Under the pieces are notes generated by a model. The model searched no databases and was not told where the DNA came from. It saw only the letters and a program-made list of their open reading frames with translations. From a virus: a DNA stretch of 64,000 nucleotides. A program made the position numbers and the translations under genes. This document shows, one piece after another, positions 18,811 through 21,751 of the stretch. The stretch lies in the IMG/VR virus record IMGVR_UViG_3300011114_000356, positions 1-64,000 of that record, one strand, 5' to 3'. Each line of letters begins with the position of its first letter. The stretch's first letter is position 1.

Positions 18811-19196
18811 ATCCTTCCTTTCTATAATTTTAGACAATAGGACACCTAGGGTGGTAGGAGCCACCATTGATCCATACAGAGTAAAGCTAACACACTCTAT
18901 ACCAATCCTACACAGAGTTAATGATCTTCAGCGTGCATAGTAGGTAGTACCACCCCAGTCCTATGCAGACACGGTAGTCGCCATTTAACGCTACCCAGTA
19001 GAGCCTGCGGGTGTAGACAGGATACTATGTTTTCTTCCAAGCCACCCATGTAGGTGCACTGATATCGTTTGGAGTACGAGTTGGAGATAGTAAAAGGAAA
19101 GGACAACCACAAGCGTAGTTATTCTAGTCCCCTTAATATCTCTCCCTATTTATAAATTTACACCTAATGAAAATAAAAAGCAAGTGGTAGAAAAGA

Positions 19197-19227
19197 AAAA
19201 CCCCTAGGTGATCAGCCTAAGGGTTTT
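19197..19227 (-). terminator. Rho-independent terminator
   Basis: AAAACCC-C-TAGG loop TGATCAG CCTA-A-GGGTTTT. Reading leftward the stem is followed by TTTTTCTTTTC, a good U-tract. Reading rightward there is TTTT and then AAAG, so it may work in both directions. Confidence 0.65.
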
Positions 19228-19232
19228 AAAGT

Positions 19233-19305
19233 GGTTCATGAGGGGTGAACCGAGACTTTACCGAGAGAGATAGTAAAGGGACGACTGTGAGGAAAGGGAC
19301 TCACA
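19233..19305 (-). ncRNA. Three consecutive stem-loops, possible small RNA or leader
   Basis: GGTTCA/TGAACC (19233-19251), CTTTAC/GTAAAG (19256-19278) and TGTGAG/CTCACA (19286-19305), evenly spaced by short linkers. A leftward promoter candidate at 19312-19340 would start transcription at the outermost stem and the terminator at 19197-19227 would end it, giving an RNA of roughly 115 nt. It could also be an attenuator for the replication operon. Confidence 0.4.
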
Positions 19306-19311
19306 TTCGAA

Positions 19312-19518: not shown

Positions 19519-19590
19519 TTGCAGGCAAAACTCATGATTATATGGATGATTTTGTATAGCAAAAAGAGCAGAATATGCAATACAAACTAC

Positions 19591-19638
19591 TTTGTGTAGC
19601 ATATATTACACACAAATATGTTTGTGTAGCATTTTTTA
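19591..19638 (+). promoter_or_regulatory. Switch-like leader of pqqA
   Basis: TTTGTGTAGCAT occurs at 19591-19602 and again exactly 30 bases later at 19621-19632, with a variant TTTGTATAGCA at 19551. ACACAAA at 19610-19616 lies between the two copies and can pair with either TTTGTGT. The downstream pairing (loop TATG) is followed four bases later by TTTTTT, like a terminator. The stems have only two G-C pairs, so the repeats may instead be protein-binding sites. Confidence 0.45.
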
Positions 19639-19666
19639 GAACAATTGATCTACAAAGGAGAACATT

Positions 19667-19738
19667 ATGTGGACAAAACCAGCAGCAACAGAAATGAGAT
19701 TTGGCTTCGAAGTGACTATGTACGTAATGAACAAGTAA
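19667..19738 (+). CDS. pqqA: PqqA, precursor peptide of the cofactor PQQ
   Basis: A 23-residue peptide that starts MWTKPAATEM and ends RFGFEVTMYVMNK. It has the defining PqqA features: W2, K4-P5, R11, G13 and the E15-x3-Y19 pair, which PqqE joins by a carbon-carbon bond and from which all carbons of PQQ derive. Length matches bacterial PqqA (about 22-29). A strong AAAGGAG lies 6 bases before the ATG. No pqqBCDE genes are in the window, so the host would have to supply the enzymes. PQQ is the cofactor of methanol dehydrogenase, which points to a methylotrophic host. The gene is intact and unlikely to be a chance match. Confidence 0.88.
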   Translation: MWTKPAATEMRFGFEVTMYVMNK

Positions 19739-19776
19739 TCGTAAGTTTGCACTTAGTGTAACTTTGTGATTAGTAG

Positions 19777-19804
19777 TATAATAGGGGACTTATGTCCCCT
19801 TTTA
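19777..19804 (+). promoter_or_regulatory. TATAAT box and hairpin over the oxygenase start codon
   Basis: A perfect TATAAT (19777-19782) lies 9 bases before the ATG, so a transcript from it would be almost leaderless. AGGGGAC-TTAT-GTCCCCT (19783-19800) followed by TTT places the ATG inside a 7-bp hairpin, which also looks like a terminator for pqqA. The -35 is poor. Confidence 0.5.
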
Positions 19805-20406
19805 TACGTTCTAAGCTTGATATAAACACTGATGAGATAGCTGATAAAGTCTTTAGACTTCAGAAGTATTGGATATCTAGATCAGATGACTTTGATTTCT
19901 ATACCTTAGGTAGATGTGCATACCTAGATGGTAAGACCCATGCTTACAAAGAAGAGATTAAGATTCTTAACCCTATCATGCGTGAAAGCTTTGGCGACAC
20001 ATATGATATCATTATTGATTACTTATCAGATCAATTCAAAGAGCCCATAAAGCTTAACTACACTTTAGCCCACCCTTCATTCCATATCTTTGTTTCAAGT
20101 CCAATACTACTTACCCATGCGGGTGTATGGCACCAAGACTATCCACATATTACTTTAGGGCTAGGGAGCAACAGTCCATTTACGTTTACTGTAGCGATTA
20201 AATTACCAACTGGAGGGGGAGGTATTGACTATATAGAAAATGGCCTACAAAGGTACTTACCGTACGAAATAGGGGGTATTATAGCTCACGATGGGGAAGT
20301 GCTGCACAGGATATCTAGCTTAAAAAATTATGTGCCTAATGAATATAGGATTAGCTTACAGGGACATTTAATACGGATTGATGGCGTATTGAATATGTTT
20401 TGGTAA
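19792..20406 (+). CDS. 2-oxoglutarate/Fe(II)-dependent oxygenase-like protein
   Basis: 204 residues. It has the facial-triad pattern of this superfamily: H114-x-D116 (VWHQDYP), distal H172 (EVLHRI) and R186 (YRISLQGH), the usual 2-oxoglutarate-binding position 14 residues later. A double-stranded beta-helix fits the strands between. No other Met occurs before residue 63, so the hairpin-embedded ATG is the likely start. Substrate unknown. Its place 53 bases after pqqA is suggestive, since PQQ maturation includes an iron-dependent hydroxylation (PqqB), but protein or nucleotide substrates are equally possible. Confidence 0.65.
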   Translation: MSPFIRSKLDINTDEIADKVFRLQKYWISRSDDFDFYTLGRCAYLDGKTHAYKEEIKILNPIMRESFGDTYDIIIDYLSDQFKEPIKLNYTLAHPSFHIFVSSPILLTHAGVWHQDYPHITLGLGSNSPFTFTVAIKLPTGGGGIDYIENGLQRYLPYEIGGIIAHDGEVLHRISSLKNYVPNEYRISLQGHLIRIDGVLNMFW

Positions 20407-21040: not shown

Positions 21041-21751
21041 CTATACAAGTTTACCAGTCCATTGACCATTTTCATTTAATACCATCGGCATAAGCTTTGG
21101 TTGACCATTGATAATCATACCGCAACCTACAATGAATCTAGTTTTAAAGTTCTTGGCATATTGGAATGCCATTGACTTTTGATTGATGAGACAGCCTACC
21201 TGCATTCCCCAAACTAAAGCATCTGGATTAGAATAGTAACCAATACTAAACTTGGTATGATAGTGGCCTTGCACTGTGTTCATCCCGTATTGCATGGCTA
21301 CTTTAAGCACATCAGCAGATAATCCATGCGTAAAGAAACAACGTGAACCATCTGATAATGTAATTGTATGGTCATCAACCCACTGCCAACCATTGCCTAC
21401 GCCAAGATAATCATTGTAATGTTTGAGGTAACCTTTAGGCACACCATGTTTAAGTGCACGTCTAAACAACATAGATGAATGGTTTGAGTGAACGATAGTC
21501 ATCTTTGGGAATATCTTTTCAAGCTTTTGAATATAAGATATGGAGGCTGCAAGCTCATGGCCAGCAGAGTATAGGTCTGGGTCAGAGTCGTGCATAGACA
21601 TCGCATGCATATCTAGTTCATCGCCTATATTGACTACATGGTCTGGTTTGTATTTTGTTTTAAGGGCTTTAAGAAAAGCAAAGGCTTGTGGGTGGTGATA
21701 AGGTATATGCAGATCCGAGATTACTAATACTGATTTATATTTTGTTGCCAT
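21041..21751 (-). CDS. Calcineurin-like metallophosphoesterase
   Basis: 236 residues with the metallophosphoesterase motifs in order: SDLHIP (D13, H15), NIGDELD (D44), HSNHSS (N90, H91, replacing the usual GNHD), THGLS (H142) and GHYH (162-165). The metal-binding set looks complete, so it is likely active as a phosphodiesterase or phosphatase. Phage members act in DNA metabolism or nucleotide turnover; the substrate cannot be told here. Confidence 0.8.
   Translation of the reverse strand: MATKYKSVLVISDLHIPYHHPQAFAFLKALKTKYKPDHVVNIGDELDMHAMSMHDSDPDLYSAGHELAASISYIQKLEKIFPKMTIVHSNHSSMLFRRALKHGVPKGYLKHYNDYLGVGNGWQWVDDHTITLSDGSRCFFTHGLSADVLKVAMQYGMNTVQGHYHTKFSIGYYSNPDALVWGMQVGCLINQKSMAFQYAKNFKTRFIVGCGMIINGQPKLMPMVLNENGQWTGKLV

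Follow-up and report, generated by a model that had tools for sequence, protein, structure and literature searches.

PQQ is made from a peptide: PqqE, together with PqqD, cross-links a glutamate and a tyrosine of PqqA, after which proteolysis, PqqB and PqqC lead to the finished cofactor. One PqqA is consumed for each PQQ formed, while the enzymes turn over. In the viral DNA analysed here, a stretch of 64,000 nucleotides referred to as the window (positions 1 to 64,000 of the IMG/VR record IMGVR_UViG_3300011114_000356), an initial annotation made from the letters alone had pointed to a 23-codon open reading frame (ORF) resembling pqqA amid the genes of a lytic phage. This locus raises the question why a phage should carry the gene for the consumed substrate of a pathway and none of its enzymes.

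A pqqA gene in a closed phage genome

The ORF comprises 23 codons, ends with the stop codon TAA and is preceded by a Shine-Dalgarno (SD) sequence:

19667..19738, plus strand: pqqA, encoding the PqqA precursor peptide MWTKPAATEMRFGFEVTMYVMNK (ORF reading, Pfam and NCBIfam models)
19655..19660, plus strand: SD sequence AAGGAG, 6 nt 5′ of the pqqA ATG (direct reading)

The reading of this ORF as PqqA was substantiated by the profile PF08042 (E 6.4e-11, 42.4 bits at a cut-off of 21.1, 19 of 19 profile positions covered) and likewise by the equivalog model TIGR02107 (E 1.8e-10, 40.4 bits, cut-off 20), the peptide scoring about twice the curated cut-off in both; a comparison with PHROGs yielded no family matching it. 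Glu15 and Tyr19 of PqqA are the residues fused into PQQ, and this Glu-x3-Tyr pair is present in the window peptide and in the isolate peptides that were read. The residue hallmarks listed initially are accurate for this peptide, except that 'KP' does not hold as a fixed hallmark, Lys4 being replaced by Thr or Ser in many phage and host copies. The ribosome-binding site, described at the outset as strong, is also kept in relatives (see below).

The virus record holding the window comprises 66,274 bases and contains one pqqA. Its two ends overlap within the major capsid gene (179 nt, 98.3% identity), which indicates an essentially complete circular genome of about 66 kb. The genes around pqqA are those of a phage, encoding TerL, the terminase small subunit, a helicase, a primase, an exonuclease, Erf, and capsid and tail proteins; neither pqqE nor a PQQ-dependent alcohol dehydrogenase, nor any other pqq gene, was found in the 66,274-base record. 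Contamination of virus collections does occur, as exemplified by two pqqA records of 'Acinetobacter phage MD-2021a' (CAKLQF020000010.1 and CAKLQH020000055.1), which look like bacterial contigs with a pqqABCDE operon and were rejected. However, the window genome closes on itself, its single pqqA lies between phage genes without host neighbours, and cultured phage genomes carry the gene too, so that an assembly artefact or a misassembled host fragment, which the initial annotation had named as a potential pitfall, is refuted for this record as far as the data allow.

Several further elements were observed in the vicinity:

19792..20406, plus strand: neighbouring ORF of 204 amino acids, 2OG-Fe(II)-oxygenase-like, outside the cassette (motif HxD...H...R, by eye)
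19190-19310, minus strand: candidate small RNA, predicted 121-nt RNA with four hairpins and an intrinsic terminator at its end (z -5.05)
19340-19312, minus strand: promoter-like site TTGACA-17-TAATAT directly upstream of the candidate small RNA
18840-19140, minus strand: segment of about 300 nt lacking a clear gene, folding better than shuffles (z -2.5)

The true start of the 204-residue ORF is probably located further downstream, since its first ATG falls inside the pqqA terminator. Among annotated proteins, its closest relatives are unnamed products of the cyanophages P-HM1, P-HM2 and MED4-213 (27%), and a relative with 47% identity is found in contig L013, which carries pqqA as well. For the candidate small RNA neither an Rfam family nor relatives were found, an Rfam search of the window gave no match, and relatives of the 18840-19140 segment were likewise not found.

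Signals flanking the gene

The sequence surrounding pqqA contains the following predicted or putative elements:

19532..19579, plus strand: upstream block TCATGATT...TTTTGTAT-GCAAAAAGAGCA-AATATGC, putative promoter, common to related phage pqqA cassettes
19569-19574, plus strand: weak -10-like CAGAAT inside the putative promoter block
19610..19627, plus strand: predicted 5′-UTR hairpin ACACAAA-TATG-TTTGTGT
19738..19770, plus strand: predicted first 3′ hairpin of the pqqA transcript (region z = -5.5 versus shuffles)
19784..19805, plus strand: terminator-like hairpin GGGGAC-TTAT-GTCCCC followed by TTTTATA (direct reading, folding)

The upstream block aligns with the viral loci L039 and L064 and is present in L050 too. 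Boxes resembling a -10 element occur at -68 to -28 in 50 of 95 relatives (53%), compared with 22% for the genomic background and 40% for composition-matched shuffles. A sigma-70 scan of the window pqqA region, however, returned no more sites than shuffles, and the promoter is therefore marked as putative; that the cassette has a promoter of its own is plausible. At the place of the 5′-UTR hairpin palindromes are found in many relatives, their sequence being variable.

Downstream of pqqA a terminator-like hairpin was found in 46 of 116 viral loci (40%), in contrast to 3.8% of other ORFs and 1.8% of random positions, although the window terminator itself has a short T-run, below the strict T-run threshold. 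The comparison suggests that the gene is equipped with its own terminator. In this respect the unit resembles the moron cassettes of tailed phages, which possess their own promoter and terminator and are inserted between phage genes.

Environmental relatives and constraint on the peptide

IMG/VR was searched by degenerate DNA patterns, and the resulting counts are minima, not frequencies. The first pattern retrieved at least 120 contigs and the second, directed at variants with a changed Lys4, at least 120 more. The same ORF is thus present in at least 240 IMG/VR contigs, in addition to the nine matched isolates described below. Among the matches listed, the exact 22-codon body after the start is kept in 120 of 120 of the first set and 119 of 120 of the Lys4-variant set; the SD sequence is found in 119 of 120 listed first-set relatives and in 120 of 120 of the second set, the rate at the remaining ATGs of the first-set contigs being 10.7%. 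The retention of both features indicates that the window ORF does not reflect chance.

In the codons left free by the search pattern, pN amounts to 0.31 and pS to 0.67 (first set, listed matches), and this excess of synonymous over non-synonymous change argues that the peptide is conserved and not the RNA. Loss of the Glu/Tyr pair in relatives would have spoken against the initial annotation; dedicated scans of IMG/VR for loss of Glu15 (first and second base) and of Tyr19 (first base) returned none, a result that applies to otherwise intact peptides, as the scans fix the other motif positions. Since the same style of scan uncovered at least 120 contigs with changes at residue 4, these scans had power. 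The Lys4 replacement was also considered as a phage-specific change and rejected: 81 of 150 Methylophilaceae genomes carry the same variant type, and the phage alleles thus mirror host alleles. Taken together, the constant length, the ribosome-binding site, the pN/pS values and the absence of Glu/Tyr loss reveal that pqqA is kept by selection.

The gene travels alone. In 120 listed viral pqqA loci we sought pqqB, C, D and E and found none, in contrast to 28 of 115 host loci obtained by a similar pattern. Moreover, all 16 whole virus records inspected (25-356 kb) carry pqqA exactly once and are devoid of both pqqE and a PQQ alcohol dehydrogenase. One of the virus records is of jumbo-phage size (IMGVR_UViG_3300023174_000036, 356,312 bases) and likewise contains one stand-alone pqqA without pqqE.

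pqqA in cultured phages

A tblastn search against 50,697 phage records identified pqqA in P19250A, Venkman, MEP301, MEP401, MEP402, four Melnitz variants and, in addition, ctXG6705. Thus, every isolated Methylophilales phage that could be matched in the collection, nine in all and among them the T4-like Melnitz, carries the gene; the named isolates HIM624-A, MEP431-434 and Venkman EXVC038S, which may not be part of the collection, gave no match. The named hosts of the pqqA-carrying isolates are all Methylophilales. As the initial annotation had anticipated, phage pqqA, with its 72 bp, is readily missed by gene callers: in the isolate records inspected it either lacks an annotation or lies under an ORF assigned to the wrong strand.

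The carriers do not represent one lineage. A BLASTP comparison of the terminases of Venkman, P19250A, MEP301, MEP402, ctXG6705 and the window indicated that they are mostly unrelated, the only pairs that align being Venkman/ctXG6705 (74%) and MEP402/window (23%).

The papers on OM43 phage isolates were searched for a mention of pqqA and none was found, the sole reference to PQQ being to a supplement of the culture medium, that of H5P1 having 1 nM PQQ (PMC9004378). A phage pqqA as auxiliary metabolic gene (AMG) has nevertheless been reported before, namely for the Lake Baikal T4-like virus VP_266, which encodes PqqA, proposed as an AMG, and Baikal T4-like virus populations encode methanol dehydrogenase (PMC7678222). 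According to the same study, P19250A lacks any of the AMGs described there (PMC7678222); the P19250A sequence contradicts this statement, as pqqA is present. In a reservoir study of 2026, pqqA appears in a list of virus-encoded genes of the phosphorus cycle. What is new is the breadth, with at least 240 contigs, the absence from the annotations of model isolates in which the gene was overlooked, and the form of a mobile cassette with a lone substrate gene. The designation as AMG, put forward in the initial annotation, gains from the host-identical peptide in a closed phage genome, the nine isolates and the retention by selection.

Position and mobility

In seven head-module relatives (L118, L120, L103, L039, L058, L056 and L069) pqqA is located about 150 nt behind the capsid gene, and in the six of these in which the sequence was read there, it lies 3′ of the capsid gene's own terminator-like hairpin. 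In the window genome other genes follow the capsid gene, and pqqA is found 19.7 kb away. For about 70 capsid relatives the sequence extends far enough downstream, and in only 2 of these does pqqA follow the major capsid protein (MCP) gene; it occurs anywhere in 1 of 24 larger records of capsid relatives. The cyanophages and pelagiphages belonging to this capsid lineage were not among the matches of the tblastn pqqA search of the phage collection. On an MCP tree the presence of pqqA demands at least 5 changes, 2 of which are forced by supported branches, the tree as a whole being poorly supported.

These comparisons suggest that the unit, like a moron cassette, is present or absent among close relatives and moves between them, and its presence looks tied to the host and not to the phage lineage. 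The scarcity among capsid relatives and the lack of cyanophage and pelagiphage matches fit a host-linked accessory gene. On balance, we lean towards the view that methylotroph phages carry pqqA almost universally, as a mobile stand-alone cassette which unrelated lineages may have gained or moved repeatedly and which would bring only the consumed substrate, depending on the long-lived enzymes of the host.

The host and its own pqqA genes

Behind its initiator Met, the window peptide agrees in 22 of 22 residues with 34 chromosomal copies from the retrieved genome loci (Methylophilus, Methylotenera, Methylopumilus and others), as well as with 30 copies from phage loci. The window peptide thus equals the chromosomal PqqA of Methylophilaceae, 96 of 100 of whose genomes have pqqE. 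At the DNA level, the nearest host copy among the loci fetched agrees in 61 of 66 nt and the nearest phages in 64 of 66. Moreover, the metallophosphoesterase at 21044-21751 of the window is 75% identical to its counterpart in the OM43 phage MEP301. In line with the methylotroph host deduced initially, the identity with chromosomal copies and the match of other window genes to methylophages point to Methylophilaceae, an assignment that is well supported but indirect.

In 100 Methylophilaceae genomes we counted 1-12 copies of pqqA (median 4), whereas pqqE is single in 94 of them, present twice in 2 and absent from 4; this disparity between many pqqA copies and a single pqqE has already been published (PMC4109929). 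With about four pqqA genes per single pqqE in the host, the phage copy would reinforce a dosage strategy that is already in place. It seems that phage and host alike multiply the consumed substrate, the host without amplifying the enzymes. Two to three neighbouring pqqA genes were also observed in gammaproteobacterial methylotroph contigs of the Methylophagaceae type and others (L205, L208 and L133), providing more evidence for the multiplication of pqqA by methylotrophs.

Proposed role and alternative explanations

The gene is real and correctly identified, and a function in PQQ supply is plausible. With a probability of roughly 0.7 we consider it a genuine phage pqqA in a self-contained, moron-like cassette, which supplies only the consumable in order to sustain PQQ-dependent methanol oxidation until lysis. 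Upon infection host mRNA would be lost and the supply of the peptide cut, while the catalytic enzymes would remain. A short monocistronic mRNA, its start and end set by a promoter and a terminator of the cassette itself, would then allow PqqA to be made at a high rate, and host PqqD/PqqE, the protease, PqqB and PqqC would convert it to PQQ. The PQQ-dependent methanol dehydrogenase, and hence the supply of carbon and energy, could be kept running until lysis, to the presumable benefit of the burst. As the peptide is consumed 1:1 and the enzymes are already present, bringing pqqA alone would be an economical means of sustaining PQQ synthesis. When pqqAB was added in acetic acid bacteria, however, PQQ rose by 29%, whereas it increased eightfold with pqqABCDE (PMC7936290), which implies that the enzymes can limit as well; and since the hosts already hold several pqqA copies, the substrate may not limit PQQ.

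The same host copies, the lone gene without partners and the very short, structured transcript predicted for it would also suit a decoy or regulator, in which PqqA or its mRNA titrates PqqD/PqqE or acts as a signal and conversion to PQQ is not the point. We regard this as unlikely: for a decoy the joint presence of Tyr19 and Glu15 would be dispensable, yet both are strictly retained in a peptide identical to the host substrate, and synonymous change exceeds non-synonymous change. About equally improbable is a PQQ boost that serves another periplasmic PQQ dehydrogenase, redox protection or PQQ as a shared good. It would agree with the lack of a methanol dehydrogenase in the window phage and in the 16 records checked, but all named isolate hosts are Methylophilales, and methanol dehydrogenase is encoded by the T4-like viruses of Lake Baikal, with PqqA in VP_266 (PMC7678222). 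Less probable still is a passive passenger that recombined in from the abundant host copies and is not under selection. Many such copies are available, and the gene is tiny and changes place; nevertheless, purifying selection acts on peptide, length and ribosome-binding site in at least 240 contigs of mostly unrelated phage lineages, and exactly one copy is found per record. Thus, supply of the consumed precursor for methanol oxidation remains our preferred reading.

In lakes and coastal seas, the OM43 and LD28 methylotrophs are important for one-carbon cycling. If a gene for the PQQ precursor is routine in their phages, infection has a direct effect on the cofactor required for methanol oxidation, and pqqA would provide a simple sequence tag for methylotroph phages in metagenomes, marking those that infect PQQ-using methylotrophs. 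The published gene lists of model methylophages would then miss a likely metabolic gene. If true, this is a testable case of a phage that supplies the consumed substrate of a pathway instead of an enzyme, and cultured pairs of host and phage have been described: H5P1 with Venkman and Melnitz, HTCC2181 with MEP301, and IMCC19250 with P19250A.

Comparison with known systems

The window gene and chromosomal pqqA of Methylophilaceae specify an identical peptide with the same cross-linking residues, follow the same kind of ribosome-binding site, and occur as stand-alone copies in hosts too. In contrast to the chromosomal genes, the window copy resides in a phage genome, is single, lacks pqqBCDE and appears to have its own terminator; compared with the closest of the retrieved host copies, it shows at least 5 synonymous changes. 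The OM43/LD28 phages P19250A, Venkman, MEP301, MEP401/402 and Melnitz likewise bear a stand-alone pqqA, with peptides 77-96% identical, which in the records inspected went without annotation or under a wrong-strand ORF and is not mentioned in the papers on the OM43 phages. The Baikal virus VP_266 shares with the window phage a pqqA in a virus of Methylophilaceae; however, VP_266 is T4-like, whereas the window phage belongs to a different lineage and is devoid of methanol dehydrogenase. Finally, the pqqA unit is reminiscent of moron cassettes in that it stands alone, is followed by a probable terminator, varies in position and is present or absent among relatives, and it departs from them in that its promoter is putative and its cargo is a RiPP-like cofactor precursor.
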